Source: Isoetes taiwanensis
Taxonomy: Eukaryota; Streptophyta; Lycopodiopsida; Isoetales; Isoetaceae
Reading direction: 5' to 3'
Assembly (NCBI GenBank): GCA_021234155.1
Contig: JAJEKV010000131.1
Span: forward strand, 1,473,288-1,537,287
Length of the DNA: 64,000 bases
The notes beneath the pieces are model-generated. The model worked only from the letters and a program-made list of their open reading frames with translations, was not told the origin of the DNA and did not search any database. Shown here piece after piece: positions 42,407 to 64,000 of the stretch (its first letter is position 1; the number at the start of each line of letters is the position of its first letter). The translations under genes and the position numbers were made by a program.

Positions 42407-43737
42407 TTTGTTAAGATAGTTTTACCTTATGTATATAAGGCAGTCTTGGCATGACCCCCTTGGATTCACCTAAGCATAACTTCCAAGATTGGAAGTAGAT
42501 AGATTCTTAAATATTTTTCATATGGAATATGATTGCCATATATGAACTTCTAGGAAGGGTTTTATTGAATTTTGAGCCATTGATTTTATATAAATTTTAA
42601 AGTGAACAGTGCAAATGCACCATTTTTGGTCCATCATCTGACAATTCTAGTGCTAATGCAGGACGACTCAGATTGGTGAAAGCCAACCCATTTGCCTCAC
42701 ATCGAATAACAGAGAGTGGAGAAACCTATAGACTGCCCGATTGATATATTGGATGGTACAAAGCAGAATATACCTCCAACCCAATACCAAAGCAAGGGTT
42801 TGCCCTTCAAGCAACCCAAAAAGAAACACAGTAGTCAAAATAGCCATCTAAAATTGAGCATGTACAAGGGTGAAGCGGCGGAATGCCAGGAATTTAGATT
42901 TAGAATTTTATTTTGCTTTAAGAATCGACTTTTTTGTCTTCATTCTTTATGTTATTTGTTGTTCAATCACTTATTGTGCTACATGACAGTCTCAAAAAAT
43001 GTATAATATGGTGATCCCAACTCTGGTCAGGAACTCACTAAATTCTTTTGCCATTCGTCAATTCGCCCCGGAGCGTGATCCCAAGGATGAATTTTGTGAG
43101 AAATACCAAAGCTTTGTAAGAATCCGTCCAAAATATGAAGGAAGTCTTGGATATGAACTCTGTAATTTTTTAGATTAGATGGAAAAGATGAGTGCGAATA
43201 CTGCAATCGATGATAGGAAGTATATATGAGGCAGGCTATATGTGTTAAGTGTATATGGAGGATAAATATCCAAAATGTGGGAGTTAGGAATGGTGGAACA
43301 CAGGGGACAGAGTGGCAGCAAACATCTAACATCTGACATTAAAACAGCTAACATGACAATACTAAAATAATAATAATCCAATTAGGCAGCTAACATCTAA
43401 CATTCGAACATCTAACATAAACAATACCAAAATAATAATAACTGGATTAGGGCAGATGTGTAATCCGAGTGCATCAATATGGGAGATGCAGTGAAACGAA
43501 CCCACTGGCGAATCAAGTTAGGGATAGTTAGAGATAGTTACTGCCCATCAGCGGGTATGTGTAGATAGTATGAAACGGCACACACAAAAAACGTAAAAAC
43601 AAGGGTAAACACAAAGGAAGAAAAGGAATACGGAATAAGATACGGGACAGAGAGGTCCACACTCCGCCGTGCACCAGGGTAGCGAGGGGTTCCAAACCAT
43701 ATTCTCTCCCTCTTCTACTACATGTTCTTCTGTGTCA

Positions 43738-45165
43738 CTACTTCCTATTTCTAAGGGCTTTCCATACCTCCATCTTGTACTTGAATTCCTGTTTCATTTT
43801 CATCATCATCTTCATCGTCAAACCATCCCTCTGGCGCCCAGGGCTGCACTTTCTCTTTTTCTTCTGACACATCACTTTTAATTGCCCTATCTTTATAAAA
43901 TTTAGTCTCGTCAAATACCTGGTTTTAGGATCATATAGTCTGTACCCTTGGTCCTCATACCCAACCAAATATGTTTCTATGCTACGATCATCTAGTTTGG
44001 ACCGCAACTCTTCTGGCACATGCATATACCCTAAACAACCGTATGCACGCAGTCTCTTTACAGATTGTTTTCTACCAGACCATACCTCTTCAGGAATTCT
44101 TCCTTGGATACTAGCAGACAACAATTTATTTTGAATGTAACATGCAGCCTGAACCGCTTCTGCCCAGAGATAGTTAGGCAACCCTGCATGTTTTAACATA
44201 GATCTTACCGTGTTCATAAGTGTCCTGTTTTTTCTCTTCGCGATGCCATTCTGCTGTGGCGTATATCTGCACGTAAATTGACGTCTTATCCCTTTCTCAT
44301 GACAAAATTGCATGAATGCCCCAGACATATATTCTCCCCCTGAATCTGAGCGCAAACGTTTCAACTTCCTAGACGTCTCTCGTTCAGCTTCTGCTAGATA
44401 CAATTGGAATGCCTGGAATGCTTGATCCTTCGATTTCAAAAAATAACATTTTGTTCTCCGGGAAAAATCATCAATAAATGTGATGAAATATGTCTTGCCA
44501 CTCATACTCTGAACACGCATCGGTCTGCACAAATCTGTATATACCAAATTCAAAAGTCCCAAAGTTTTGGCAAACCTGGGCTTAAAATTGTGTCTAGTTT
44601 GCTTCCCAAGCATACAACCATGACAAATTTTGTGCTCTTCTGCAGTTATGCTGTTAGGCAAATCTTCTACCAAACTATGTTTGCTCATGATTTTTATGGT
44701 TGCATTATTTATATGGCCAAGTCTGAGATGCCACAAATCTAATAAATGAACACTTCCAACACAAGGCACAGCATCCAAGCAATACAATTTCCCTTTTCTT
44801 CTTGCATATATCCTTCTACCGTTACCCACCATTTCACAACGATAAGAATCAAAATTTACGTTATATCCCGAGTCTACTAAGTCAGCAACTGAAATCAAGT
44901 TAAATAACATACCAGGAGTATATAAAGCATTCTCCAAACATATTTTATCTTCACCTTCATGATAAAACTCCCAACTTTCCACATCCTTTTACTTCATGCA
45001 AATGCCCATTTCCCATCTGTACACATGGTGTGTGAGACTCTCTTATAGTTTTCATCAATTTCTCCGAAGCAATCACTGTTCTCTCAGCTCCTGAGTCAAT
45101 GGTCAGTGGAACCGTTGCAGCAGAATTTGTTTCCATAATTATGGCCCTTGCTCTGATACCAATGA
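43738..45165 (-). mobile_element. Copia remnant B: protease and integrase, catalytic Glu lost
   Basis: On the - strand, a primer-binding site TGGTATCAGAGC (about 45147-45160, initiator Met tRNA type) is followed almost at once by a protease block (VPLTIDSGAERTVIASEKLM), so gag has been deleted. An open frame of 414 codons (44982-43738) then gives the gag-pre-integrase zinc block (HLRLGHIN...CHGCMLGKQTRH) and the integrase core with DLCRPM, RSDSGGEY and PQQNGIAKRKNR. In active integrases the last block has AERKN; here the catalytic Glu codon reads Lys. RT and RNase H do not follow. The element cannot be autonomous. Confidence 0.88.
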
Positions 45166-46423: not shown

Positions 46424-48010
46424 ATGGCGGAAGCAATAGGAGCAACACAACAAAAGAAGAGTGAGGCAATGAAGGTAGCTGCTACACAACAACACTTCGA
46501 GGACTTCTTGGCACAGATGGATAAACAATTAGAAGCAAGAATTCCAAGGATGGATGCACTAAATGCCATCGTGGAGATGACCAACCAGAATAAGGAGGAA
46601 ATCACCCCGGGATAGAGAAGACAGAAGAGGGGATACAGCGGAGGATGAAGAGATCGAGTAAGAAAAGATGAACATCATGGAAAGATTGGTGGCCCTAGAG
46701 AAATAGAATGTAGATACGGATGCATGACAAAGGTTTGATAGGATAAAGCCACATATAGTTGAGTATGAAGAGCAAAATAGGATTAAGCATGATGTTAGAT
46801 TGATAGGAATTGCCGAAAAACCTAATGAGGACACAAAAACAATGTGGCTGCAAAAATAATGGGAAGTAGTGAAGGCAGTAGGGGCAGGACACTAGAAAGG
46901 CAAGCCAAGGCATATCAACCTGATGCTGAGAGACATGGCAGACAAGGAGAGGGTGCTTCGCATGGGAGCCAGGCCGCGGAACGGGATGAAGGTACAGGAA
47001 GCACTGGCAATGGCGCAGCGACAGGGGCTGCAAAAAGAATTGGCCAAAGCCAGGGAACTAAACCTGGCAGGAATACAGGCAGGGATACGTAATGGGAGGG
47101 CGTACATTATGAAGAGAGGAAGAGATCAAACAGGACAAGAGCCGAAGCCAAGGATGGAGAAAACAAGGACAACAGAGAAGAAGGACAACCCCGCAAAGGT
47201 GAAGACACAGAGGCTGATAGAAACCACTAGACAGGCCCTGAAAGAGTTGACAAAAATGGAGACACAAATGCAATTAGGGTCCCAGTTACAAAGAGAGGAA
47301 GGAAGCAAAAGAGGGGGAGGAAGGGAAATGGATAACATAATAGGAACTGGAGAGCAATCAGTAGCCAGAACGAAGGAACAGACCAGGAAATCAGGAGGGG
47401 AGGCATAGCGACAACAAAGGGGGCAGGAGATGCAAAAGGGCAAGAAAAGGTAACCATCTGGTACTAGAATTGCACAGGGTATCCATGGGATGACGAGAAA
47501 AGCTGGAGGAAGCAAGGGGACACGACATCATAGTCATAGTAGAAACTTGAGAATATAATGCAAAAAGGCTACTAGAAGAAGAAGGGTACCAGCTCTCCAC
47601 CTGCTAGAAAGATAAGAACTTTAAAATTGGGAGCGGGCTTAGCCTGCTACATAAGGAACAACTGGTAATGCATGTATTGTAAACATGGACATTAATAAAA
47701 GATACATGCTGCTCAATGTCATGCGGTCAAATAAACAAGAACTCTCAATGCTGATCTGCTAATATTCGCCTAATGGTGATAAACTAGTGCTATTGGGCCT
47801 AGGGGAGGTCATCATAAAATGGAAGGACAAAGGCCCATTGATGGTGGTAGGAGACTTCAATGCAAGGACAAAACAAAAATAGGCGCAAATGCCATTCTAT
47901 GACGAAGCAGACGGGCAATGGACGCAGATGGATAGACCGGAGGAATGGACGAGGGACATAGCAGACAAGGAGCTTAATGCAAGAGGGGAAATGCTGATTG
48001 AACTCTAACA
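46424..48010 (+). mobile_element. Non-LTR retrotransposon remnant: ORF1-like and endonuclease
   Basis: A coiled-coil-like start (AEAIGATQQKKSEAMKVAAT) and a VRLIGIAEKPNED block resemble an L1-type ORF1. Gly/Lys/Arg-rich open stretches follow to 47408. From about 47450 the frame pieces give a WYQNCTGYPWDDEKSW block and, at 47830-48005, MVVGDFNARTK followed by DIADKELNARGEMLIEL. This is the GDFNA and LN..G..LI signature of the apurinic-type endonuclease at the start of ORF2. The RT that should follow is gone; the copy ends near 48011. Strand and sequence differ from the other LINEs in the window. Confidence 0.65.
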
Positions 48011-48410
48011 AGGTTTAAAATGAAACGCACTTATTTACGAAGTTGAGCAATTAGCATTCGGAATACCCCCAAAAAAGTAACATTTTTGAAGCTTTTTCAT
48101 TTTTAAAAGAGGGCAAAAAAAAAAATGCTTGTTTTGAGGAGAGAGACATTAATTTTGAAAACTCAGTAAGTACTTATTGTTGAAAATAGAAGGAAATATA
48201 GTTTGTCTTTTTGCAAGCTTAATATAAGTACTAATAAAATCAAACATAGGAAAGACAAAGAGTGTGAAATCATGGAGCAAAAAAGAGTTGTTCTAATTAA
48301 GCATTGTTGAAGAGACAAAGCTTTCAGTTTAAAAAATTTCATCAAAATATATTATAATTCTTAGCACATAGTTTACAATGAAAGTAGTTTATAATTCTGT
48401 CTGTATAAAC

Positions 48411-49098
48411 TCATATGGGAGGTGGGGGAGGTGGCTCTTCCCAGTCCACAGGACTCTCGTACCCCTTAGGATCTGGCTCTTGTGAGGACATAACAGCGGA
48501 GACGCCTACTTCTGATTCCAATCCTACTGGCGCAGGCGGTTTCTCTGGCACAGGCTCCACAAGCTCCAGGTCGACAAACTCCACCTCCTCGTCATTTCTC
48601 CCCGTAATAGGAGGCTGGGTTTCTGTGTAAGTGCCTTTAACATCGCCAGCACCGTTCTTTGCTCCTAGTTCCTCGTTTTCATCAGGAAAGGATTCACAAG
48701 AGCTTATCCTGGTCCTGATGAAACTTATTTTATCTGGGTCTATGTCGACAGAGGCAACATTGCGCCCCTGCTTAAGGGCGCAAATAGCTGTGGTGCCTGT
48801 TCCAGAAAAAGCATCCAAAATCCAGTTGCCTGGGCGAGAAAATCACTGTATTAAGTTATTAATAAGCCTATGTTGTTTCTGATAATGGGACACCACAGCG
48901 CCTTGTCTCTGTGGGTCCCTTAACTTTTGCAGAATAGCCGGGTACTGAAAAGCATTGCAGGGAGGGATCTTCTCATTCTGCGTATTGAAATGTGCCATGG
49001 TCTTTTTGGCGTCCGCGCTGTAAAAACCTATATGGAAATGCTCAAAACAGCTCACTAAGCGCGGACCACCACCATGTCCCTTGACGTTCGTTTTTAGC
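48411..49098 (-). pseudogene. Beta-class DNA methyltransferase, C-terminal half
   Basis: After an acceptor (TTTGGCAG at 49099-49106) the frame reads GHGGGPRLVSCFEHFHIGFY, a stretch resembling the later strands of the methyltransferase core. It continues to SHYQKQHRLINNLIQ, then an in-frame TGA (48843-48845), then FSRPGNWILDAFSGTGTTAI and GRNVASVDIDPDKISFI. The order (catalytic part first, AdoMet motif DAFSGTGTT last) and the motif itself are those of beta-class N4-cytosine/N6-adenine DNA methyltransferases. The tail is acidic and Pro-rich and ends PPPPPP before the stop at 48411. A DPPY/SPPY catalytic box should lie upstream and was not found. Activity is therefore doubtful in this copy. Confidence 0.75.
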
Positions 49099-49169
49099 CT
49101 GCCAAACAATACAGCAATTAAAAATTAGCAGGAAGGAAACAATAAAAATAAGTCAGCCCAGTGGTGTGA

Positions 49170-49248
49170 CGGTATAAATTTATGCCGCGGTGTGCCTTGG
49201 CTCGGTATAAATTTATACCGTGCCAAGGCTCGGTATAAATTTATACCG
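49170..49248. repeat. Cluster of three 18-bp palindromes in the cassette intron
   Basis: CGGTATAAATTTATACCG, a perfect palindrome, occurs at 49203-49220 and 49231-49248, with a one-mismatch copy at 49170-49187. The middle copy sits inside a larger near-perfect palindrome (49194-49229, arms GCCTTGGC/GCCAAGGC, one mismatched pair). Diverged copies occur at 50333-50349 and 50952-50968. None was noticed elsewhere in the window. Confidence 0.95.
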
Positions 49249-49346
49249 AGCACTGCTTTCAAGGTTGATACAAGTTTATATAGTTTGAGGCCACTGCACA
49301 GTTCACTCCACATTAAACATACTAGATGATTAAAAGTTTTACTTAC

Positions 49347-50303
49347 TTGACCATCTCGGAAGGCAAGCTGGAAGTAATTGTCGTACTACTTTACAGCCAG
49401 TATAGGCTTCTTATCGGAATCGTAACTAAGGCAGCACTCTGTGACACAAGCTTCTCGAAGCTCTTGGAGCTTGTTCTTTTGCTTCTTGAAGTCCTATCCA
49501 TGCACTTGTTTAAATTCCACGTACTCTCGGTGCATAAAGCAGATCTTGTCTATCAGGCTCATTTTTAATTTGAAGTCATTGTCGAGATTGTGACTCACGG
49601 CAATGACCTTTGCTTCTTCGTCTGTCACCCCCACGTAGATATGTGCTTCCACGCTCTTCCAGACTTCATTACGGCTTTCTTCTTTTGAAAGTTCTTTTCT
49701 TGCTTTAAAACTATGTGTGCCTCCAAGAACATAATAGGTGTAATCTTCGAAATCTGCCTTTTTGTAGTCTTTTAATTGGTTGCACTGACTTCTGTCTACC
49801 ATCACAACTAGTGGCGACACATGGGCATGAGAATTCCTTCTCATTCTTTGCTTGAGGATAGCCACATGTGCCGCGTACAGCTTTCGGACCTGAAGCACTC
49901 TCACCCCATCTTCATTTTTTGGTGGCCTCTTAATCGTGCTCAGTGTCAATGAAATGGTTTGCTTGAGGAGTTTGGTCTCATTAACCCTCTTCAAAATAGC
50001 ACTTGACTTATCAGACGGCTGCACAACAATGTCTGCCCCAGGAGCCTTTTGGAGAGCTTCTGCTGACTCCTCTATGGTCAAGGCCTTTGTGGTTCTTGAC
50101 CTTTTTTTGGTGGGAGGCTGTGTATCTGTTACCAATGCTGATCTCTTGCTCTTCCCTCTTGTCACCACCGGTTCCTCCTCTTCCTCTTCTTGTTCCGAAA
50201 CCTCGTCCTTCTCGACATCTTCTTGAGGAAGTGGGTACCAAAGACCTTTGACCATTTCCTTTTATTCACAAAGTATTACTGAGGACAAAATGTCCACTAT
50301 GTC
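49347..50303 (-). pseudogene. ParB-like domain protein of the same cassette
   Basis: The clear frame runs 50255-49494. It has an acidic then basic N-terminus (QEEEEEEPVV, PPTKKRSRTTK, possible nuclear signal), then VVMVDRSQCNQL, YYVLGGTHSFKARKEL and GVTDEEAKVIAVSHNLDN. This fits the ParB/sulfiredoxin-like fold: a (V)xxGxxR-type loop, here GGTHS, then the LxDEEAxxxAxxxN helix. The same frame continues past TAG (49494-49496) through DFKKQKNKLQELREACVTEC and a second TAG (49386-49388) to a donor GTAAGT (49341-49346), which is spliced toward the methyltransferase part. Two TAGs and a frame break near 50255-50303 make this copy look dead, unless they are sequence errors. Confidence 0.7.
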
Positions 50304-50332
50304 CTGTAATGCAGGGTAAATTAGAAAGATGA

Positions 50333-50349
50333 CGGTATAAATTTATACG
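50333..50349. repeat. Diverged palindrome copy in the 69-bp intron
   Basis: CGGTATAAATTTATACG, the left part of the 18-bp palindrome, fills the centre of the short intron between the first two coding blocks of the cassette. Confidence 0.85.
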
Positions 50350-50372
50350 TGAAGCCACTAAGAACAATTTAC

Positions 50373-50768
50373 ATAGCCATTCTTGTAATTTTCCGCCATG
50401 TAATCATGGACATCTTTAGGTCTGCACATGCTTATACGAAGCATTCTACTGTTCAGAATATAGAAGACTTCATCGTTGTCATTTAGGCACTTCATAAAAA
50501 TCTCATCTTCATTTTCTGTTGCAGTGAGGCTTATCATTTCGCCGGCGGGGTAGTAATCATCTTTGGTAAACTTTCCCCTCCCTGACTGATTACACAAATA
50601 AAGGTACGCCTCAGTGGGTTTGTGCTCTCTCGCTCCCCTGTGTACGTACCACGTCTGGTCTGTGAGTTCATATGTTTGTGGCTCTGCTTGGTTTGCCTTT
50701 GATGATTGGCGCGCAAAAAAACCCATTTTTACACCAAAAATACAGTTTTTCTCCACTATTTTGGACAC
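50373..50768 (-). CDS. Unrecognised N-terminal block of the ParB/methylase cassette
   Basis: An open - strand block from ATG 50768: MGFFARQSSKANQ..., then ELTDQTWYVHRGAREHKPTE, GKFTKDDYYPAGEMISLTAT, DEIFMKCLNDNDEVFYILNS and a donor GTAAAT after AENYKNGY (50373). The alternating hydrophobic pattern suggests a small beta-rich fold, perhaps a BAH- or SH3-like reader, but I cannot assign a family. A 69-bp apparent intron (50304-50372) separates it from the ParB block. It may be the same protein's N-terminus or a separate small gene. Confidence 0.45.
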
Positions 50769-50951
50769 TTTAACTGTAAGAAAAATGGCTTAAAGGACCT
50801 AAAATGCACGCTATTTTAACCCTTTATTTGTGTCACTTGACCTTAAAACACAACATTATTACTCAACTACTAAGGTTCAGGACGTTTTTTTGGCCTCTTG
50901 ACACTTTACGAGAATAGAAACCATAAATGTTGTCTTCTTTATGTTCTGGAA

Positions 50952-50968
50952 CGGTATAAATTTATATG
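50952..50968. repeat. Diverged palindrome copy upstream of the cassette
   Basis: CGGTATAAATTTATATG lies about 180 bp upstream of the first ATG of the cassette and 11 bp before the LTR of the gypsy element at 50979. It may mark the original element end or promoter. Confidence 0.8.
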
Positions 50969-50978
50969 TCTCGAGCAC

Positions 50979-51498
50979 TGTGACGACCATACGGATATTC
51001 GTATCATACGAACATTATACTCCTATGTAGAAAAGATGGTCGTCACACGGATGCAAAAGGGTAGTTGTACAAGACAGGGTTTGAACTCGCAACCTTCAAG
51101 TTGCGAGTCACACACCCTTGCCAAGTGCGCTACCAATACTTTGTTGAAAACATTCCTTCACGTCTTTCTCATATGTGGGACTATCTCCAGAAGGTTCTAG
51201 AATGTTCTAGAACCTAAATGCATGCGCGACACTTGGCGCAATCTCATCCATTGGAGTGGCGCGATCCTGACCGTTGGTCTAGATATATAAGGAGGCACCT
51301 CCTTCTTGTCAAACCATTCCGGTTCAACGCCAGTCTTGAGCCTTCTAGGCATCTGTCTCCTATTCCTGCTTGCCTTCGGGCTATTGTATTCTTGATTCTT
51401 GTTCATATATCAGATTCTTTGCCGACCTTGGCGTATTTCTTCCATATTTCTTGCGTATTCTCCACGTATTTTCCTTGTTTTCGAGTAGGTTCATGACA
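50979..51498 (+). mobile_element. 5' LTR of the outer gypsy element
   Basis: The LTR begins TGTGACGACCAT and ends TTCATGACA (TG...CA). A perfect 11-base inverted repeat, GTGACGACCAT/ATGGTCGTCAC, spans 50980-50990 and 51036-51046. A TATA box in GATATATAAGGAGGCAC (about 51281-51297) looks like the LTR promoter. Gag starts 83 bases after the end. The matching 3' LTR is outside the window. Confidence 0.7.
51070..51140 (-). repeat. tRNA-like stretch inside the outer LTR
   Basis: On the - strand: TTGGTAGCGCACTTGGCAAG (A-box like), then about 30 bases later GAGTTCAAACCC (B-box like). A hairpin CGCAAC-loop-GTTGCG lies between them. The T stem does not pair fully, so it is a tRNA-derived piece and not a functional tRNA gene. 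It could be a SINE inserted in, or captured by, the LTR. Confidence 0.5.
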
Positions 51499-51580
51499 GT
51501 TTGAACCGGAATCCCTTACCGGTTCTTGTCTGCTCTGATCCTAAGCATTTTTTTTGCTCATATTTGGTGATTTTATATCT

Positions 51581-51946
51581 ATGGAGGAGGTTCCGACTTT
51601 ATTACGACAGGTCCAGCAGCTTGTTCAAGTATGCCAGTAGTTGCAGTTGGATAATAAAGAGCTTAAGGAACGTATTGCTTCACATGAATCTGCTTCTAGC
51701 TCGGGATTGAAGCTATCAGAGCCTAAGATCAGCCTGCCAGAGAAGTTTGACGGCACTCGGTCCAAGCTCCGCAGTTTTTTGAATCAGATCGGGCTTGTGA
51801 TTCAGCTCCATCCTCATAGATATCCCACGGCTCAAGTTCTCACAGGGCCAGCTCTAAGTTGGTTTGCTCCTTTATTGGAGAAAGGAGCCCCAGAGTTGCA
51901 AGATTTTGCTGCTTTCACTGCAGAACTCGAAGCATGCTTTGGAGAC
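51581..51946 (+). pseudogene. Gag of the outer gypsy element, 5' part
   Basis: Reads from ATG 51581 (EEVPTLLRQVQQLVQV, coiled-coil-like) through one in-frame TAG near 51638. It then reads ISLPEKFDGTRSKLRSFLNQ, PTAQVLTGPALSWFAPLLEK and FTAELEACFGD, which is the Ty3/gypsy gag core (P..F.G....W...  ... A..W). The frame is cut at 51946 by insertion of the inner gypsy element and resumes at 63606. Confidence 0.85.
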
Positions 51947-53585
51947 TGTGACGGTCCAGGGGAATATACGCCATAAATACGTATATTCCTGGATCCGTCA
52001 CTATACAAGTCTATCTTCATAGCCTTGTATACCATAGATTGGGGCATTAGGGGGCATGGCCAAGTTATTCTCATAACTTAGCCAACCATAGGTTAGACCA
52101 TTATCCACGTGGCCTTAACCTATTGGGGGCACCCGCCACACAGGATTCACCCGATTGGTGCCACGTGGCATCCTAGGTGGACCTAACTTATATAGGCTGA
52201 AACCCTAACCCTAGGCCTCTTTCCAGCCCTAGCACCCAGAGACTCACCTACTCGTTCGAAACCCCGTTTCGAACATCGTTTGTTGTGGCATAGGCTGGTG
52301 CAGCAGCCCCAGCAGGGTAGACTTGTTCTTGGAGTAGGAGCAAGATCTAGGTGAGTCGAAGACCATGGAGGCACACGGATCTGGAGGGAGAGCTTCAGGA
52401 GCAGGTATGTAGGATAGTAGTTGTGATAGCTTATCTGGAATTAGCATTCCAGATATGCTAGTATCTTGTATCTAGAGTAGAGCCATCCTAGAACCCGTAT
52501 TCAACATCTTGAACCCTAATCAATGAACCCTAACTATTAGTTAGATTTGTATGATTAGGTTAAGATGTTCTTCTTATGATTATTCTCATGATGTGATGAT
52601 TATGTGATGATGGTTGATCATGTTTGCTCCTCTTGTATTGGGAAGGGGGGTAGAGACCTAGAGCCATATGTAGTATGCTCCTAGATTAGATCCCTTAGTT
52701 CCTATTAGTTGCGGCCTGTGCATAGGAGCCCACCAGGCTATCGAGGCTATGTTATGACTCAGCACCACATAGCGGGCTAGAGGAAAAGTGGAGGGAGGAT
52801 CCCCCCCGAGTGGGGGCCGGGGGGATCCCATAGTGGGCTAGGCTTATGGTCGGTCACTTATTGGGCTCTGCATGGGTCCGACACCTCCCGGGGCAATGGT
52901 GTTGCCACTGCCTCTCGAGAGCTGCAAGTGTTGGCTTGGCTCTCGTTTTGGGGTTTAAGTCGGTGCGAATCGTGTGTCGCCCGCGATTCTCTAGCCGCCC
53001 GCGGAACCTCTAGACCACAGGAAGGGAGATGCAACCCTTCCCGCCTCATCCACCCGAGGAGATGCAACACAGAGTAGTCCCGATGGGTGATGCCATGGGA
53101 TTGCGTGTCCAGGAAGGCTAGAGTCATGCCGGGGCCTGATTTAGCCCATCCGCAAAGTATGCCGCAGGAGGGGCGGATGGAGTGGTCAACCCTAGCCATT
53201 GTCTATAGCCAGCCCCCCCATTGTTATGACTTCGATGCACTCTATCTTGAGGCCTAGCCCGGTCAGTCATCCTCCTTATGAGTCGGAGCCATGGGTAGGA
53301 GCTCTTATGTTTTATGGCATAGGATTATCTTCTTTGCGGTTGTGGATATGTGATGGACTACCCTTCTCGGTAGTATGTTGTATTGTTATTGCTAGTTCCG
53401 ACGTTGTTTATGCTTCCCGTGATAGGAGCCCATAGGGGAAGGGGCGCCAAGACACCTTCGTGTCCCCCGCCCGCACTAGGATTCTCTCGAGTGCGAGTTA
53501 GAGCCGGAGGGCCCATGCGGTTGATGGACCGGATGGGGATTTCTGCCGAGTGTCTGGGCCGTATATTTAGCGAGGAGGCGTCACA
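51947..53585 (+). mobile_element. 5' LTR of the inner gypsy element
   Basis: Starts TGTGACGGTCC and ends GCGTCACA before the primer-binding site. The first 60 bases form a strong hairpin: GTGACGGTCCAGG and AATATACG pair with CGTATATTCC and GGATCCGTCAC, loop about 8 bases. The stretch CTTATATAGGCTGAAACCC near 52185 could be the TATA region. It differs from the 3' LTR mostly by small indels at CAG/CTG/CG sites. Confidence 0.9.
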
Positions 53586-56500
53586 ATGGTATCGAGCAAT
53601 GTTCTTGGTTGACCAAGAGCTAGCACTCGACCATATCCCGAATAGGTAGACTAATGGCCTAGCTATGGAATGGAATGAGAATTCCGTCTTGAACCCATGA
53701 AAATATGGGAGAATTTTTCCCCCATTAGCGGTGGTCGTAATTAGATTAAGTATAGTCTAAGTGGTAGAAATAATATAGTCAAAAGAAACCTTCTAGTAAA
53801 TTTGAGCTCAAGTTGTTCATGAACTGCACCTTCCAAGCAAAAATATTGAACGAGAAATCGCTCAAAAGAAAGCTTGAAAGAAATGGCGTGAAATGACCAC
53901 TACTTGGCCCAAAAAGGAATTAGGAAATTTTGAGAAATAGTTAAGTGATTAGGGGAAGTACCTTAATTATTAACCCATAGTTATAATAAATTTACTCTTA
54001 AGAAAAAGTAGCTAATAAACCTATGGAAACACCTCTACTCCCTAGAAGTTCCCAAATGGTAGCTTGAATCTCTCCCTTACCCTTGTAAAGCGAATTAGAA
54101 GCTAATCTCCGAAGCGGCCATAAGAGTGTCCACCGAATCGAACAGTAATTTAGATCGACCCAAAGGAGCCGCGAAGATAGAGGCAAGATCGCCGAAGAGG
54201 CCACCATCAAGGAAGCTAAGTTGTTGGGAGGACCAAACAAGTAGCCAGGAAGGTCGGAAGCTCCAGCTTGCACCGAACGCCAAGCACTCACCGCCAGCGC
54301 ATAAGCAAATTCTCTTGAGGCTCAAGGACCTAGGCTAGACCCATCTACTTGGCCACTCAAGCCTCATTGTTTCACTCGAGGACAACGACGAAGACTCGCT
54401 AATGATCGCATGGCCTGGGAAATTGAGATCGTGGGCGCCCTGCTCGGCAAGGGAAGAGCAAGTAGCTGGCGGAGCAACTCGGCAACGGAGCAACCCCCGG
54501 CCAACAAGGAGAAAGGGAGAAGAGCAAGTAAAAGCGAGAGCAACTCGGCATCAGGAGCAACCCCAAAGAATGGGAGAGTGGGAAGAGCAAGTAGCAGAGC
54601 AACTTCGGCATAGGAGCAACCCCAAAGAATGTGGAGAGGCGGGGAAGAGCAAGTAGCGAGAGCAACCTCGGAAACGAGCAACCCCAACACCGGGGAAGAA
54701 TAGGGGGCAAAGAAGCGTAAGGAGCAACCTCGGCAATACGAGCAACCCAAGCAGGAAATGAGCAGCTAGAAGGGCGAGCAAACCAATGCTCTAAGAAAAG
54801 CGTACAAAAGAGGCATGAAGCTGGGCGTAGGAAGAGCATGGTTATCGAGAACCACAACCTGAATGGCCGGGAGGAGGATGAGCCCGAGGAAGAAGGACCA
54901 CAACAACAGAGAGGGGCTTAAGGGTTAAAGAAGAAGAGGAGGAGGAGGCCAAAGAAAAGACGAGGCCTCACGCCGGCAACCATATCCAATGCGGTCCAAG
55001 GAGGGCAACATCAGTGAGAAGCTACTTAAAGCTCAAGCAAGATATGGAGTACGAAGAAGAAGGCAAACATACAAGATTTATCTCCGCCAAAACGATCGAC
55101 AAGGCAGCCGACTAGAGTCGAAAATCAAGCCTCCACCACCTTGACCCGATTCCCCCGAAGAAGGTCCGCCATGGGCCAAATCCCCAGCACAGTAGAGCTG
55201 CCCAGCATATTCGACATTGCCAACATCATACCAGTCTGATGATCCAGAAACTCTCTTTCGAGTGCCTACATCAAAGGTCTATTGAGGAGTTCAAGATGGG
55301 CCATGACTACGGAACCACATCAACGATGGCGGGATCTCGCCAGGAAGCGGCCAAAGCCGAGGAGGCCAAGATCTGCACCATTCATGCCAAGAGGATGACC
55401 ATTACGCTCAAGAGCATGAACCTAGCACGGAGGATTAGAAAAAAAAAAAAAATGAAATTTAGGAATCTTTGAATAAGATTTTGAACTTGTATGTATATAT
55501 GTTCCTAGAATTAATGGTTGTATGTATATATATGGAGTCAAAGTCAACTCGGGTTGGATCGCGAGAAAGGCCTCTGCGTCGCAAACGCAGGTCTCATTTT
55601 CGCGAAGCAACCCGGTTTGCCAAAGAAGAAGAAAAAAAAAAGTCAAAGTCAAAGTCAACTCGGGCCCTCTGCGACCCCGAGCAGGGCTATTTCTCGCGAC
55701 GCCACCCGATTTCGGCATTTTGACAGTTATAGGTGTCCAATTTGAGTAATAAAAGTTGCTAGTTAGGTTAGAATCATGCTGAAAAGTCATGTTAGGATGT
55801 TTAAATTCCCAAAACCCTTCATAGGAATAGAATTGACGGCAAGGGTTGCATCGCTGAAAAACCACTCTGCGCCCTTGGCCTTGAGCCCTTTCTCATGACG
55901 CCACCCGATTTAAGCCCAATTTTGCCTAAATTGACCAATTTTGACCCAACAAATTGCCATGTAGTGTTTCTTGCTTTGCTTTGTTTAGAATTGCACTTCA
56001 TGGTAGCTCATTTGGACAACCATGGCTATAGATTCAAAGTCTTCCCATCGGGAACCTTTGTGCCGCGGAACCCGAGGTACCCTAGTCTATAAAAAGGGTC
56101 CCTCATTTGTCATTTTCTCCCCATCGGCTGCTCTCTCGGCTCCTTTGGCGATTTTCTAGCCCTTTGCTTAATCCCGCAGACCATTTTTCATAGCTATCTG
56201 CGCTCAATGGCACCATCAAGCTTTGTTAGATGGTGCGATGAGGCCGTAGAAACAAGCCTTCCATGTATTTGATCATCTTTTTTATCTCCATGCCATTTTG
56301 ACTACAACTCCCTATTACACCGACATCATTTGCCAATATGACCAAGCCTTATAGTTAGAACCAAGATCCTTAAGCTAGATAGAGACAGCATCTGCACTCA
56401 TCACAGCTTAGTTGTCGCTCTTATCTTGCTAAGTGTCTTCTTGTCTACATATAGGTAGTATAATTAAACCTTTTCCTTAGAAACCCGGCTAGTTGCTAAG

Positions 56501-59165
56501 GCCTTAGAAATTGTTGTCACATCGTTGGTATGATACACCAACACCGTTATAGGTGCACTTTCGGCCATACCTTTGTATCATAGATAATTATCTAGAAATT
56601 CATCCTATCTAGGTAATTGAGTCTAGCACACCAAGTACACCCAGTGAATGAGTCTCCTTCTACCACCCCCATGATAGTAAATAAGTACCTTTCTCAGTGC
56701 CTAGTAGAGTGCCAAATGCCAAGTGGGTCATTTGAGGTAGAGTGGATAAAGGTATAAAAATAGGGTTTGTAAAGTAAGTAGCCATAAATAATTGTTGTGT
56801 GATAGTATTAGTTGCCTTGTGTCGTAGGGGCGATAATATAGGGTAGGAGAATCTTCCTTGTAGATTCTCCGCGGTGGAACCACTTTCGACAACATCAACG
56901 AATCGGCGAGAGGGCAACCTTATGGAGGAAGCTTCAGCAAATCAAAGGCCAAGATGGTGTCTGCGGAAGCCGAACACGAAAAAATAAAGGAGAGCCTATA
57001 GGAAGAACGATTGCGACATCGGATTAGACACAAGGCGCCAAGAGGGCTATGCAGCGATCAATGGGCATCATGGCACTTACAAAATTGCTCACATTAGGGG
57101 AAGGGTATCTCCTAGTCAAGGATATTCTCCAAGTGCCATATTGCCTCGAGGAACAACCCTACATCGATGACTGATGTCACAGCTATGCCACCAACAAGTA
57201 GACTTCATCGACTTATGATCCCTAAAAGATGAGACTGGACAAACCTCCTCAGAAGGGAAATTATCATAGGTATCCAGGCCATAGTAGTATCAAATTTGGA
57301 CTTCAAGCAAACATGCTTGACTAAGGAGGTACTACAAGCCAGCAAGGGTGGGCTTCTCAGGAATAGAAATTTCTTCCTCATCAGCCCGATACTTCAGAGC
57401 AGCTGCATCAACCTCGACAGCGCCATCTCAAGATCACGACAATCTTCTGTTGTAGAGATTGGAGGTCAAGCACCATCAAGAAGAGGCATCATGAGGGACC
57501 AAATACCAGAATTATTAATTGATCAGTCAAGATTAGTCCTTGTAGATGGATGCACATAAACTCCTCTAAGCAAGAGAAGTTGCACAGTTAGAAGTGGTAA
57601 AGCACTCAACATTGTCATCAGCCTTATAACAACAGCATGCAATCAGCAGGACGAAGAATAGAATCGACAAGGTCAACACCACAATATCAATCCAGGAGTT
57701 AGAAGAATCATCCTCGAATCTACCGTAACCTTCAAGGCGGATGGAGTCAAACCGAAAGATTCTGCACTTAGATGGTGAACATGACCTCCAAGCCTTTGGG
57801 ATGCAACACCGAGCCTTATGTAGCCACTACATCAAGCAAGTCCACTAAGAGGGATAATGTTAGTGAAGATAATCAACATCAACATTTAGGACGAGAAGAG
57901 TCAAGAGTCAGAATATGTTCGACAAAAGGAATAGGGCACAGGAATGATTATACAACAACTCCAAGGAGACCAGATCTTTTCAACAACTTATGAATCATCG
58001 TCTTGCTACTCCAACGACTAACGACTATACCAGCTTTAAGCAAGCTAGGGGACCTATTAGATAGTTGAGCTTCTTAGAATTATGGGTGATAACATCCATG
58101 ATGGGATGGGCACGAAATTTCGAGTAGATTTTTTTTGTCTTTTCCTTTAGAAAGATGGACCCAAGAATGGAGCAAAGCTTCAAGTATTGGGAAGAAAATG
58201 TATGGAGTACAATAATTGTATACATTCTTGTGCAGATATCCAACATATTGGAACCTCTTAGTGAGAGCTTGATCACCTCGCTAAGAAGGATTCAATAATA
58301 GGATAACCGTCGACCATGTATATGACGAGTACTTCCGCAGCATAAGGAATAATCCGACCAAATGAAGAGAAGCAATCTAATAAGTCCGGCCAACTTCTTA
58401 GATGGCATCAACTCAAAGGTGGGGCTATTTCAAGAGGGCAATAATTAAGAAAGGGTAGATCCTAGAGTATAGATTAGATCTAAAACAAGAATAATTATCT
58501 AATCATATAGTTTTCTATGTGTGCCCAAAAGTAATGTCATCTTGAGCTAACTTGTGGCCATAGGATTTATGTAAGTAGTTCTTTAACTTGTAATTTTGCA
58601 CCTCCTAGATGAGCCGGACATCTTTAAGAGCAAGACTCTTAAGTCTAAATCTAGGCCGATAATTAAGCCAAGGCCAAGTAATTAGCAGCACCAACGGAAC
58701 AAGAGTCAAGTTAGACATCAACCTAGAAGCAAAAGTAGAGCATCGGCACCAACTTATGTACATTGGCAATTATGACCTCACAATAAGCATGCAATATTAA
58801 AAGGCGGCTAAAGCAATAATTGATTATTATAAGCAAGAGATACTTATCCCAGCACTAAAGGGCAAGTACCTTATAATTTAAGTTAAGTAATTCCAATCGT
58901 TACAGCGCATGTCGGTAAAAGCAATTACTTAAGTGCATCATGAGGAATGAGGTCATACACAAGCTACAAGTTGTCGGACCCCAAGCCTTAATAGTAAGAA
59001 GGAAGATGCTACTTGAAGCAAATTGCCTTGGGCAATTTCTAAGTTAATCAAGAAGTCCCATGATATATCTCGGGTGAAATTTGAGAGCTTTTGCTCTATA
59101 GAGGCATAGAGTCCGAAATCACTCTTGCACTTGGGCCGAGGAGCCCGCAAGGCTCTTTATAGAAT
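53586..59165 (+). mobile_element. Inner gypsy internal region, 5' part (gag/protease not recognisable)
   Basis: No gag or protease motif can be supported. 54440-54760 is a degenerate tandem repeat of about 65-75 bp (marker GAAGAGCAAGTAGC then AGCAACTCGGCA), which gives Ser/Arg or Glu/Gln-rich readings in different frames. 55440-56200 has an A-run, a CAAAGTCAAAGTCAACTCGG repeat, the CGACGCCACCCGATTT word twice (about 55700 and 55900) and a TATA-like CTATAAAAAGGG (56085). It could be a further nested, decayed LTR. The rest is non-coding as far as I can see. Confidence 0.5.
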
Positions 59166-59765
59166 CAGCACTTCCGAACTAGCGAGAGCTCAAGAAGCGG
59201 TTGTAGGAGTGGGGATCCTTTTACCAAGATGGAAGTCTAAAGGTGTATATCAACCATGGGCAGCTCAACAAACAACGACATAATGGATCAGCCCAAGAAG
59301 CGGGATTCTTCTACAAAATCGACTTAAGCTTCGGGCAATCAGCAAATAAGGATGAAGGGGAAGATAATTATAAGACTCCTTCAAAACTTGGTATGGGCAC
59401 TATCACTTCCGCGGTGATGCCCTTGAGTCTATGGAATGCTCCACCAACTTCGTATGCATTTGAGGGCGACATCTTGAAGATTCCTTGGATGATTTCTTCA
59501 TCAATTCTCTTCCGGACGACATCGTGATCTACAGACAAATCAATGGAAGAGCATGCGTAGTGGAGATGTTAAGGCGTAAGCCACTCATTGGCAAGCTTTT
59601 TTGAAGCAGCAATTTGCAATGCCATCTCCACTTCGACAAGCGAATTCGGCAAGAAGATAGAAGAAGCCATCTTCCCCAACATGGAGTTCAAGCACATGAT
59701 GGGCTAGTCCTTACAAAGAGTGCAAGAACGGATTAAGAAAGAGAACCTTCAAATATTTTAAAAGG
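59166..59765 (+). pseudogene. Inner gypsy reverse transcriptase remnant
   Basis: Frames in series give VYINHGQLNKQ, FFYKIDLSFG, TSAVMPLSLWNAPPTSYAF and then, in another frame, PDDIVIYRQ. These are the RT blocks R.C.DYR.LN, K.DL..G, MPFGL.NAP.TF and the catalytic Y(L)DD. The two Asp residues of the last box are still present. The thumb and RNase H region after 59600 is short, so RNase H appears deleted. Confidence 0.75.
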
Positions 59766-59929
59766 AAGGTAATCTTTAATATCAAAGAACAACTATACTC
59801 AAAGCATAAGGAGTAAGAAAAATTTTTCAGGACACATAATAGCCCTATTTCCTATATGCAAAATTTATAAAGGTCTACTTCAAGATTAGAAGTAGCTACT
59901 TACGGCGGACATGAAGAAGCGGATAGTCG

Positions 59930-60500
59930 ATATATATCAAGAATGTCGGTGGCATCCCGTGGACAAAGGGCGGAACAACTTCGAATTTTAGGAGTTTTGG
60001 AACCTTGGGCGGTGCCAGACGCCAAGTGGGAAGTCTTCAGCATGGGTTTTATAATTGGCCTTCCAAGGACAACAAGAAGCTTTGAAGCCTTGATGGTTGT
60101 GGTATATAGTTTATCAAAAGAGCACATACTTGCCATGCCACACCATAGACACAGCCTTGGATCTAGCCATGGGGTCTACATAAGAGTTCTTTTAGGCTGC
60201 ATGGAAGGCGTAGGTCGATCATCACCAATAGAGATCCGGAGTTCTTTAGCGACGTTTAGCAGCACTTCTTCAACACGAGCTGCACCAACTTGTTGATGGG
60301 TTTTGCTTATCTTTTGCAGTCAAATCGGCAAAGGGACCGCACCAACACAATTTTGGAGAGTACGTTGAGGAACTATGATTGGAACAAGTAATCCAAATGG
60401 GCCGAATACATCCACCGGGTCAATTACGTACAATAATATGAAGCAAGAGTCATCGAAGATGTCTCCCCCATGATCAGTTACAGTTATCAATGCTTGACCC
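59930..60500 (+). pseudogene. Inner gypsy integrase remnant
   Basis: The stretch from 59943 reads LGVLEPWAVPDAKWEVFSMG, then FIIGLPRTTRSFEALMVVVY and SLSKEHILAMPH. This matches the integrase core entry L.PLPIP...WE..SMDFI.GLP......D.I.VVVDRLSK. The first catalytic Asp (SMDFI) is Gly here. The following core is only dimly recognisable. Confidence 0.8.
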
Positions 60501-60719
60501 TAGTTATGTGGCATACTCTAGTGCCCTAGGTGGAAGTTTCTCAACAACGACAGCATGTATGCAATAGCTTTTGGTAGAAGTGTGAGAACATCTTCAACAG
60601 CATGGGCACATCTGAAGAGTCTAGCAGGTAGACATAAAACTCCTCGGGAGTTGTTTTGTTGTGGCAGATAAAGTTGGCTCAAGTAAAGGTTAAGCAAGGG
60701 AAGCTTCGCATCGGCAATT

Positions 60720-61108
60720 GTAAGAAGCTCGCCCTAGGTGGGCCGGTCCATTCAGGATCTTGGAGAAAAGTGGGCTCTCAAGCCTACAAGTGGAATCTCT
60801 TGGCCCACCTTAAGGTCTTCCATGTAAGTTTATTGAAAAGGCACGATCCTAACCCTGAGGAGGTTTTGGCTACTCCAACTTTGTTGGAAATGACAGAGGA
60901 TCAACTTGAAATTGTGCCTGAATTGCTTCTTGATAAGTCATTCAAGACTCAATTCCTTCAGTATTTGGTCATGTGAAAGCACTTACCCGTGGAAGACGCG
61001 GCATGGGTATTGAAGCAGGATTTGGAGAAACAATACCCAGAATTTATGAAGGAGTTTGATGGGCGAGTCGTCTCCGACTTGGTCGACCCCGACTTGCCAG
61101 GTGGTTAG
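60720..61108 (+). pseudogene. Inner gypsy polyprotein C-terminus (chromodomain-like)
   Basis: Frames give SGSWRKVGSQAYKW, LPAHLKVFHVSLLKRHDPNP in decayed form, EEVLATPTLLEMTEDQLEIV and LLLDKSF, then in a shifted frame KHLPVEDAAWV..DLEKQYPEF. This is the post-integrase GPF.I...G..AY.L.LP.....VFHVS.L block followed by a chromodomain-like (W......WE....F) end, as in plant chromoviruses. Confidence 0.75.
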
Positions 61109-61968
61109 CTAGTATGTTGTTAGTTAGCCTTAAGCCTGGCGCATGCATTCTAGTTAGTAGGGTGCATGTGCCGTAACCTTGATCGTGTGGGCGATGATGG
61201 GATACGCCTTTTAGGGCATTCTCTCTAGGCCACACGCACCAAAGAGGTGCATGACCATTAGGGTCATGTGAGTGAGGAATGAGGCATGGTGGGCGATGAT
61301 GGGACATCGATCGATGATCTCTATGCCACGATCGCGGGGCAATGCACACCTGCCGTAGGAGGGTCATGGTGAAGGTTAAAAGTGATCATCTTGTGATGAT
61401 GGGATCGCGTGAGGCGTTCCCTAGCCGAAACCCTCGGGGCATGATGCCCTTGGGGTGTACTCGATCCGGGGATGCGTGTACAAGGTAGCACTAAATCATG
61501 GGCAATGATGGGAGCATCTAAATGATCCCTAAGCTCAAATCCGAAAAGGGCCATGATCTTGGGCAAGGTAGTAGGACAACCTTGGCCATGGTTCGCTCAA
61601 GGAGGTAAGGGGGTGGTCCCCTAAAACCACAAATTATTAACTAAACTAACGTAATGTGCTCCTTTTGCGAGGCAAGTAGAAGGAGGACTTCAACGAGGCG
61701 TTACGAGAAGATAGGGGGAGCCATAATTTAGATTATGAACCCTAATAACTCTTATAATAGTATTTTGAATTATTATAAGAAATAACGGTGTTAAGGCTAT
61801 ATAATTTTGTATAAGTACAAATATAGCCTAAATTTTGACCTTTTAACTAATAAAACTTGATTGCTAAACTAAACTAAAGGTTATGACATGTTGTTGTTTT
61901 ACGGGCATAAGGTTCGTTCGTCACCTTAGCGCAATGCTGAGGACAGCATTGTCCTAAGGGGGGGAGAA
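61109..61968 (+). repeat. Inner gypsy 3' leader with about 104-bp repeats and polypurine tract
   Basis: The marker GCGATGATGGGA (with variants) recurs at about 61191, 61293, 61393 and 61502, a degenerate tandem repeat of four units. Most are followed by inverted pieces such as ATCGATCGATGATC. The region has no coding frame. It ends in the polypurine tract AAGGGGGGGAGAA (61956-61968) that primes plus-strand DNA synthesis. Confidence 0.75.
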
Positions 61969-63600
61969 TGTGACGGTCCAGGGGAATATACGCCATAAAT
62001 ACGTATATTCCTGGATCCGTCACTATACAAGTCTATCTTCATAGCCTTGTATACCATAGATTGGGGCATTAGGGGCATGGCCATGTTATTCTCATAACTT
62101 AGCCAACCATAGGTTAGACCATTATCCACGTGGCCTTAACCTATGGGGGCACCCGCCACACGATTCACGATTGGTGCCACGTGGCATCCTAGGTGGACCT
62201 AACTTATATAGGTCAAACCCTAACCCTAGGCCTCTTTCCAGCCCTAGCACCCGGAGACTCACCTACTGTTCGAAACCCGTTTTGAACATCGCTTGTTGTG
62301 GCATAGGCTGGTGCAGGCCCAGCCAGGTAGACTTGTTCTTGGGTAGGAGGCAGGCATCTAGGTGAGTCAAGACCATGGAGGCACACCTGATCCGGAGGGA
62401 GAGCTTCAGAGCGGTATGTAGGATAGTAGTTGTGATAGCTTATCCGAATTAGCATTCCAGATATGCTAGTATCTTGTATCTAGAGTAGAGCCATCCTAGA
62501 ACCCGTATTCAACATCTTGAACCCTAATCAATGAACCCTAACTATTAGTTAGATTTGTATGATTAGGTTAAGATGTTCTTCTTATGATTATTCTCATGAT
62601 GTGATGATTATGTGATGATGGTTGATCATGTTTGCTCCTCTTGTATTGGGAAGGGGGATAGAGACCTAGAGCCATATGTAGTATGCTCCTAGATTAGATC
62701 CCTTAGTTCCTATTAGTTGCGGCTTTGTGCATTAGGGCCCACCAGGCTATCGAGGCTATGATATGACTTCAAACCACATACATGGGGCTAGAGGGAAAGT
62801 GGAGGGAGGATCCTGCCGGAGTGGGGGGGCCGGGGGATCCCATAGTGGGCTAGGCTTATGGTCGGTCACTTCATTGGGGCGGGCATGGGTCCGACACCTC
62901 ACCGGGCAATGGTGTTGCCACCTCTCGAGGCTGCAAGTGTTGGCTTGGCTCGTTTTGGGGGTTAAGTTTGAGTGCGAATGGGTGTGTGCCCCCGCGATTC
63001 TCTAGCCTCCACCGGGAACCTCTAGACCACAGGAAGGGGAGATGCAACCCTTCTGCCTCGCCCGGACCCGAGGAGATGCAACACGGGTAGTCCCGTGGGT
63101 GATGCCATGGGATTGCATATCCGAAGGCTAGAGTCATGCCCGAGCCCGATTTAGCCCATCCGCAAAGTATGCACGGGGAGGGGCGGATGGAGTGGTCAAC
63201 CCTAGCCATTGTCTATAGCCAGCCCCGCCATTGTTATGACTCGGTGCGCTCTATCTTGAGGCCTAGCCGGGTCAGTCATCCTCCTTATGAGTGGGAGCCA
63301 TGGGTAGGAGCTCTTATGTTTTATGGCATAGGATTATCTTCTTTGCGGTTGTGGATATGTGATGGACTACCCTTCGAGGTAGTATGTTGTATTGTTATTG
63401 CTAGTTACGGCGTTGTTTATGCTTCATTTGTGATAGGAGCCCATAGGGGAAGGGCGGCAAGAAGACACCTTCATGTCCCCTGCCCGCACTAGGATTCTCT
63501 CAGTCTTGAGTTAGATGGAGGGCCCATGCGGTTGATGGACCGGATGGGGATTTCCTACCCGAGTGTACGGCGAGGCGTAGATATTTAGCAGGGCGTCCGC
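61969..63600 (+). mobile_element. 3' LTR of the inner gypsy element
   Basis: Same start (TGTGACGGTCCAGGG), same terminal hairpin and the same body as the 5' LTR. The end GGGCGTCCGC is altered relative to GGCGTCACA and is followed by the target duplication GAGAC. Most differences from the 5' LTR are short indels or C/G changes in CAG, CTG and CCG words. Confidence 0.9.
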
Positions 63601-63605
63601 GAGAC

Positions 63606-63990
63606 ACCGTCGTCGGCTAAGACATCCAAAAACTTTGCAACTTAAGGCAAGGCTCTACGCCCGGCCGGTGATATGCATCGAATTTAAGTCAAATTGCGGT
63701 AATAACCGCACCGGATGATATTGCACTTGAGATTGCTTCCGAAGGGGTTCTACGAGAGGATGTCAAAGATATGTTGTTGTCTATGGAGGATCTCCGAGTT
63801 TGGAAGAAGCCATCAGTTGCGGTTGATGTGATAATCGGCTCTTCTTGAGCGTAGGCAGAGAGAGACGTGGTCGAGTCTTTCCAATTACACAAGCCTTTAT
63901 AACTTCGCCTTCCCGGAGCCTTATCGTAGAATCTAGCGTATCACGGACTGAGCCTATCACGGTCGATCGAGGCGGTTCGAGGACCCTTAT
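63606..63990 (+). pseudogene. Gag of the outer gypsy element, continuation
   Basis: Directly after the target duplication the gag signature resumes: KLCNLRQGSTPGR, YASNLSQIA, DDIALEIASEGVLREDVKDM and LLSMED, then in a shifted frame SLEEAISCG and CDNRLFL. These are the gag-core blocks (L.QG.SV..Y...F..L........ F..GL......L) expected right after the ACFGD end at 51946. Several one-base shifts are present. The element runs out of the window. Confidence 0.85.
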
Positions 63991-64000
63991 GCCGCGTAGA

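Follow-up and report, generated by a model that had tools for sequence, protein, structure and literature searches.

What is a gene that joins a ParB-like domain to a beta-class DNA methyltransferase doing in the nuclear genome of a lycophyte? The question arises from a 64,000-nt stretch of the Isoetes taiwanensis genome (contig JAJEKV010000131.1), hereafter the window; coordinates above 64000 continue into flanks from the same genome, the 3′ flank being L030 (72624 corresponds to L030 8624). A sequence-only reading of this DNA had noted a ParB-like and a methyltransferase block on one strand and had proposed an intron-containing, mobile DNA-modification gene residing in plant nuclear DNA, and both points held up. 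The two blocks belong to one broken gene on the minus strand (50726..48411), which encodes an N-terminal domain, a ParB/sulfiredoxin-fold domain and the C-terminal part of a beta-class amino-methyltransferase. This gene is very probably an accessory gene of a cut-and-paste DNA transposon with terminal inverted repeats (TIRs), represented here by a dead copy. The mobile unit is recognizable by its TIRs, a second gene of the DUF7869 family, a palindrome array and a CTCT target-site duplication.

Results

A TIR transposon split by a later insertion

From the anatomy of related elements in Azolla-like DNA (see below), we predicted the parts expected around the window copy, namely a divergent DUF7869 gene, an array and inverted termini, and then looked for them in the flanks. 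All of them are present, split by a 17.5-kb insertion of a long terminal repeat (LTR) retrotransposon (Table 1). The element reads TIR, ParB-methyltransferase gene (facing outward), central palindrome array, divergent DUF7869 gene (facing outward), TIR; without the LTR element and one copy of AGCAC it measures 7112 bp, the size of an Azolla-like element. The parts, their order, the termini and the duplication are established.

Table 1. Coordinates of the transposon, its ParB-methyltransferase gene and the insertion that splits it (window-extended numbering).
Feature	Position	Strand	Remarks
Target-site duplication CTCT, 4 bp	48003..48006	.	Partner at 72624-72627 (L030 8624-8627)
TIR, 30 bp	48007..48036	.	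29/30 against the inverted copy at 72594-72623 (L030 8594-8623); blastn of flanks E=1.8e-9
Last exon(s), C-terminal methyltransferase part	48411..49100	-	PF01555; alignments with proteins from Adiantum, Ginkgo and Azolla-like DNA
Intron-like gap with three palindromes	49101..49346	-	Internal deletion relative to relatives
Cluster of three GGTATAAATTTATACC copies	49171..49247	.	Starts at 49171, 49204 and 49232
ParB/sulfiredoxin-fold exon, three in-frame stops	49347..50303	-	
Intron-like insertion of 69 bp, one palindrome (50334-50349)	50304..50372	-	In Azolla-like copies this stretch is a single open exon
First exon, unnamed N-terminal domain, ATG at 50726	50373..50726	-	Kept in relatives; blastp query 20-436 against P0063 covers the N-terminal domain
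Rest of intergenic palindrome region, gene side	50727..50978	.	One palindrome, 50953-50968; array resumes at 68479-69120 past the LTR element
LTR retrotransposon insertion	50979..64000, on to 68478	.	Splits the transposon; not part of it
Decayed DUF7869 gene	about 69570-72209	+	Profile and Pfam

The invading LTR element has LTRs of about 520 bp (50979-51498 and 67961-68478) that are 95.2% alike, TG..CA ends and an AGCAC duplication. The label 'gypsy' given to it earlier stood in part: it is an LTR element, and the gypsy/Ty3 type is weakly backed by a Ty3_capsid match under the cut-off (E=0.031). When joined, the outer flanks of the transposon encode, across a frameshift, a reading that runs from NARGEMLIEL to GKSIVDYVITN; we take this to be a non-LTR endonuclease relic. 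The relic itself had been named beforehand; Pfam scans of its pieces in the window gave no endonuclease match. The relic looks like the insertion target of the transposon, and the LTR element is a later invader. Because one is an apparent target site and the other a later insertion, neither tells anything of the gene's lifestyle, for which these neighbors had once been taken as a sign; the carrier is a TIR DNA transposon. The possibility that the gene belongs to the LTR or the non-LTR element was rejected, as the LTR element lies inside the transposon with its own LTRs and duplication and the joined flanks read through the relic. Bacterial contamination of the window was also rejected, given the intron-like gaps, the plant-type repeats and flanks within a 1.96-Mb contig.

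Judged by its sequence, the window copy is inactive and dead, because it lacks motif IV, stops or frameshifts interrupt both genes and the LTR element lies inside the array. The last exon(s) contain a YQK-type motif, the motif I DAFSGTGTT, an acidic tail and the terminal stop, along with one premature stop just before 48842; their 5′ border near 49098 is approximate. The internal deletion at 49101..49346 has left this copy without the middle region and the methyltransferase motif IV that relatives have, and a search of the copy for motif IV found none. The 3′ border of the same gap is apparently common with an Azolla-like intron, yet the gap spans a deletion.

Better-kept copies in Azolla-like DNA

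A scan of GTDB genomes returned 15 stretches that fit the pattern, and nine loci were confirmed, all in one cyanobacterial metagenome-assembled genome (MAG), 'uncultured Trichormus sp.' (run ERR2144891). Trichormus azollae, of the Nostocaceae, is the symbiont of the fern Azolla. We infer that the contigs are Azolla DNA binned with its symbiont, because introns interrupt their genes, the closest relatives with a name are plant proteins and L012 has an identical counterpart in P0070. The MAG contains fern-host-like contigs (L005-L013 and L022-L029), including transposons with open genes, and its gene content is not to be read as all bacterial.

In these copies the ParB-methyltransferase gene comprises one large exon (N-terminal domain, ParB-like domain and linker) followed by exons with YSLMIADIPYGF, NPYQKP and DLFSGTG|TTLACALK. 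The large exon was read at eight loci, L006 being left out for absence of the anchor string, and is open over 562-594 codons in six of them, 278 in L007 and 111 in L013. Across its 28 pairs, nonsynonymous divergence (dN) is 0.08-0.28, and synonymous divergence (dS) is saturated in 24 pairs and 1.7-5.3 in the four where it could be computed, with dN/dS ≤0.11. For the DUF7869 gene, dN/dS is ≤0.14 in all pairs with computable dS. Both element genes are under purifying selection in the Azolla-like copies.

About 600 bp downstream of the methyltransferase gene lies a block that recurs, inverted, past the DUF7869 gene, forming the TIRs AACACGTTTGCGTGAAGAA..GGTAACATTGCGT. Both ends are present on C433, C142 and C204, with TIR identities of 32/35, 27/35 and 26/35 and element lengths of 6044, 7805 and 7724 bp, respectively; single ends occur on other contigs. 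C204 carries a perfect TGTT duplication.

The partner gene, a probable transposase

The open reading frame (ORF) upstream of, and divergent to, the Azolla-like ParB-methyltransferase gene matches PF25273 (DUF7869), with E=1.1e-51 in L007 and 6.1e-45 in L012. In L005, L009 and L011 the ORF is truncated and gave no DUF7869 match by itself. Eight DUF7869 places were found in the MAG, with open frames of 873-924 amino acids in seven and 529 in one. Five share a contig with the ParB-methyltransferase gene, in divergent orientation in 5/5, and the other three lie on short contigs (3.7-4.2 kb). Where DUF7869 is absent, as on four of the ParB-methyltransferase contigs, at most about 560 bp are present upstream of the gene. 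Given three conserved acidic motifs (IDGMDQ, LDNTxRENKN and GHTHDxID) and its place as the sole conserved partner seen, DUF7869 is very probably the transposase that would cut at the TIRs, and PF25273 would thereby gain a likely role. A search of solved structures with the DUF7869 protein returned nothing.

Inside the 64-kb window no DUF7869 remnant was found, because the gene lay beyond the window end. In the flank, a profile built from Azolla-like sequences alone scored its best piece at E=2.4e-23, and Pfam scored two pieces as DUF7869 (8.7e-11, and 7.9e-4, the latter under the cut-off). On C447 (L023), the full gene is accompanied by a further, partial DUF7869 fragment and another left-end-like stretch, at about 2300-2770 on the reverse-complemented contig, perhaps from nesting or duplication of a copy.

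Palindrome arrays of the element

The palindrome GGTATAAATTTATACC occurs in five copies in the window with ≤2 mismatches, where none is expected, and all five sit in the gene's intron-like gaps or just upstream of it. Palindromes are the only clear family in a repeat search of 47800-51400. Ten further palindromes (68488-69068) lie directly past the LTR element, before the DUF7869 gene, and within 104 kb (≤3 mismatches) 15/15 fall inside the element. Both intron-like gaps of the window copy, 50304-50372 and 49101-49346, hold the element's own palindrome, which may have spread within the element.

The Azolla-like elements have arrays between the two genes, e.g. GGAAGTCGATGC-NNN-GCATCGACTTCC. Across 12 contigs, 41/41 core sites lie between the genes or upstream of the gene, with a mononucleotide-shuffle mean of 0.03 per set. 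Most spacings (26/32) measure 41 or 50-52 bp, which is close to four or five turns of the helix. The core is kept among copies that are mostly saturated at synonymous positions. In the DNA examined, the palindromes are confined to the element.

Fold and motifs of the encoded protein

As the sequence-only reading had anticipated, the window methyltransferase piece matches PF01555 in a Pfam scan (E=1.3e-7), as do P0001 from Adiantum (4.3e-9) and the Ginkgo-labelled P0034 (7.8e-19). The ParB half of that reading stood by structure and not by family profile: structure comparison supports a ParB/sulfiredoxin fold, and PF02195 gave no match in the window ORF at E≤1 or in 25 proteins scanned with cut-offs of E≤1, E≤0.5 and E≤0.1. 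A weak DUF6551 match (E 0.019-0.039) appeared in 5/25 of the scanned proteins. The N-terminal domain of the window ORF had no match in the Pfam scan; a domain without a Pfam name is common to members with a full 5′ part. The predicted structure of full-length P0001 is poor outside the ParB domain (mean predicted local distance difference test score, pLDDT, 52.6), and its comparison with the PDB gave no match at E≤0.001 and nothing useful for the methyltransferase. In a solved-structure search, RsrI and other methyltransferases matched P0001, though solely over its methyltransferase part. In BFVD, phages have the fold, the second-ranked match being a phage DNA methylase, and the best PHROG matches of the methyltransferase part were PHROG 498 and 67.

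The beta-class motif order IV, X, I was read in L005, L007 and L009. The motifs are DIPY/DAPY for IV, NPYQKP for X and DLFSGTG for I, and they fit an enzyme that methylates exocyclic amino groups. Motif IV is DIPY in 7/9 Azolla-like contigs holding the gene, C294 and C473 giving no motif IV match; it is DAPY in Adiantum, EAPY in P0001 and DIPH or DISQ in Ginkgo. Of the canonical residues, the acid, second proline and tyrosine are retained in DIPY, which resembles the NIPY/NLPY of rRNA adenine methyltransferases.

Relatives in ferns and Ginkgo

Searched against 5.8 billion proteins, the window reading had five matches, all from Adiantum. A profile of these five found 44 proteins (7993 candidates scored), comprising 43 from A. 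nelumboides and A. capillus-veneris and one Gb_-labelled protein, a label read as Ginkgo biloba. A search with this Ginkgo protein gave 36 rows: itself, three further Gb_ models, Ceratopteris P0062, 24 ENA/JGI proteins, six Adiantum proteins and P0074, an unrelated-looking methyltransferase (E=9.7e-7). The multi-copy homologs with fixed domain order that had been predicted do exist, since N-terminal, ParB-like and methyltransferase domains follow one another in constant order within a single protein or gene, be it from Adiantum, Ginkgo or Azolla-like DNA. P0001, one predicted protein, carries the ParB-like domain, the linker, EAPYGF (motif IV-like), NPYQKP and DLFAGT; most other Adiantum rows have DAPYGF instead of EAPYGF. 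Many Adiantum models are short or partial and several carry retroelement domains, as expected because the genes are repeat-borne.

Among the Ginkgo-labelled proteins (P0034 and P0045-P0047), motif IV reads DIPHGY (P0045) or DISQGY (P0047), and the ParB-like box reads GGCHS (P0034, P0046) or GGCNS (P0045), with a cysteine as in the GGCH motif of sulfiredoxin. Catalysis has possibly been lost or changed in the Ginkgo lineage.

Discussion

A candidate self-marking transposon and its alternatives

The identity of the transposon is firm, and a self-marking mechanism is plausible. DUF7869 would cut at the TIRs, with the ParB-methyltransferase protein as an accessory. The palindromes between the divergent genes are probably bound by a protein that the element encodes. 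Classically, ParB proteins recognize palindromes close to the gene that encodes them; because a ParB-fold protein is encoded beside element-confined palindromes, its predicted binding to them is reasonable, and by analogy with ParB loading at parS the ParB-like domain would be the likeliest binder, a proposal to which we give slightly less than an even chance. The chances appear balanced that the methyltransferase would put a methyl on the exocyclic amino group (N6-methyladenine, 6mA, or N4-methylcytosine, 4mC) of the element's own DNA. Such methylation would regulate the two promoters, tell the element's own ends from host DNA or escape host silencing. Taken as a whole, a parS-like system in ferns, Ginkgo and Isoetes, in which a ParB-fold protein occupies the central arrays, marks its own DNA with 6mA or 4mC, controls both genes and evades or redirects silencing, with protein and palindrome matched in each element lineage, is a tentative proposal, possible rather than likely.

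Several observations weigh against a transposon with such a system. The TIR pairs of C142 and C204 match at 27/35 and 26/35 positions only, and a perfect 4-bp duplication is present in 2/4 both-ended copies (the window and C204), C142 having ATTT/AAAA and C433 TATG/TTAC. The palindrome sequence is entirely different between the window element and the Azolla-like elements, and 3/12 Azolla-like contigs have no core site (C433, C294 and C473), of which C294 and C473 extend just 116 and 400 bp upstream of the gene, while C433 has damage in that region. The canonical DPPY/SPPY is not kept in motif IV (DIPY, DAPY; DIPHGY or DISQGY in Ginkgo), which makes methyltransferase activity uncertain. Box II is GG[STCN]HS in 17/17 rows, with serine at the position of the phiH YcdA arginine in a weak, non-significant alignment; given this apparent serine for arginine, ParB-like sliding driven by nucleoside triphosphates is doubtful and should not be assumed. 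Finally, we found no literature that names DUF7869 or describes it as a transposase.

The arrays might instead serve the DUF7869 transposase or a host factor, as operators, insulators or enhancer-like sites, leaving the ParB-methyltransferase protein to act elsewhere, e.g. at the TIRs or on host chromatin. Lying between two divergent genes, the arrays occupy a natural operator position, a spacing of 41 and 50-52 bp would suit any protein contacting a single helical face, and transposases often bind internal repeats. The classical behavior of ParB and the presence of a ParB-fold gene in the element speak against this alternative, yet nothing here separates the binders, and we regard it as possible, though on the unlikely side. 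A conserved host chromatin methyltransferase family like Marchantia DN4MT, caught or amplified by repeats, would account for the strong purifying selection, the spread in ferns and Ginkgo and the several full reading frames. Against such a host gene stand its place, in two distant lineages, in a unit bounded by TIRs and shared with a second gene, and the many Adiantum models that are short or partial, some of them containing retroelement domains; DN4MT is described, in the available part of its account, without extra N- or C-terminal domains (PMC8885841). We therefore disfavor this origin as highly improbable.

Descent from an integrated virus, or recent acquisition from a bacterium or phage, has very little to recommend it, even though ParB fusions with N6/N4 methyltransferases are common in phages according to the accessible text of a 2025 survey of the ParB-CTPase fold, in which sulfiredoxin is the commonest eukaryotic form (PMC12704722). 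The phage protein phiH YcdA combines N6_N4_Mtase with a ParB_N match under the Pfam cut-off (22.4 against 26.3 bits), and thus has, like the window family, a ParB-like domain followed by a beta-class methyltransferase. Phage fusions, however, have no introns and prokaryotic hosts, whereas the better-kept copies here have introns. The virus origin suggested at the outset was not borne out: viral scans gave four stretches with none confirmed and 18 with one (44 residues, methyltransferase only), no viral contig in them encoding a relative of the fusion, and the BFVD matches show only that phages share the fold. Among phages and plasmids, no record covers 80% of the query, and the likeness does not reach beyond the methyltransferase part or the residues immediately preceding it (best 20 of 40 and best 20 of 744 records).

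Relation to known systems

Read as the accessory gene of a TIR transposon, the family has its nearest precedent in algae. ParB-methyltransferase accessory proteins have been reported in brown, green and red algal transposons, and the available text of that 2025 Ectocarpus paper (PMC12477816) already puts self-modification into print. The Ectocarpus element is likewise a DNA transposon that encodes a ParB-like domain and an N4C/N6A methyltransferase in one protein, on the strand opposite the transposase, and its authors propose binding and self-modification by this protein. It measures 21.5 kb and encodes a 1104-aa protein, whereas the Isoetes and Azolla-like elements measure 6-8 kb and have a DUF7869 partner; palindrome arrays are not mentioned in the accessible part of the Ectocarpus account. 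A 4-bp duplication is reported for Sola2 in the available portion of PMC3627910; together with the Ectocarpus precedent it offers only leads to a possible place in the Sola-1 superfamily.

Other eukaryotic mobile elements carry DNA-modifying enzymes that, as far as the accessible text of each source goes, differ in kind. Dinoflagellate and charophyte retrotransposons also encode methyltransferases that may act on their own DNA, but these are C5 cytosine enzymes of eukaryotic type in retroelements (PMC5890265), and not an amino-methyltransferase in a TIR transposon. Viral Mariner elements with an endonuclease and a methyltransferase are likewise DNA transposons with a DNA-modification passenger, but have other transposases and other enzymes, with no ParB mentioned (PMC3627910). 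Marchantia DN4MT (PMC8885841) and bdelloid N4CMT (PMC8566409) are, similarly, eukaryotic amino-methyltransferases of bacterial type; the former has no added domains and the latter a chromodomain, and both are host enzymes not described as transposon-borne. Its N-terminal and ParB-fold domains set the window family apart from stand-alone DN4MT as described.

Among the literature matches listed, with subscription literature (including Iyer 2011) outside the scope, there was no report of the ParB-methyltransferase element or its parts in vascular plants, or of its arrays; only the algal precedent appeared. As far as these searches reach, the members in Isoetes, ferns and Ginkgo, the DUF7869 partner, the complete termini with duplications and the arrays as candidate sites are new. 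The proposal of transposon self-marking has so far rested on domain content in the available text of PMC12477816, and the elements described here add candidate target sites. The predicted binding and methylation can be tested on defined DNA, for which the better-kept Azolla-like copies provide material. If the enzyme works, an amino-methylated DNA mark would exist in plants beyond liverworts, with a parasite and not the host as its writer, and hosts would have a pool of enzymes open to recruitment.

Other repeats in the window

Another LTR-like pair of 1.6 kb (51941-53571 and 61963-63589, 91.4%) is nested in the LTR element. Farther upstream, at 36771-44988, the window contains two large direct repeats (37950-40959 and 41801-44827, 95.5%), the second of which overlaps an ORF at 43738-44988 with integrase and gag-pre-integrase domains that looks copia-like.

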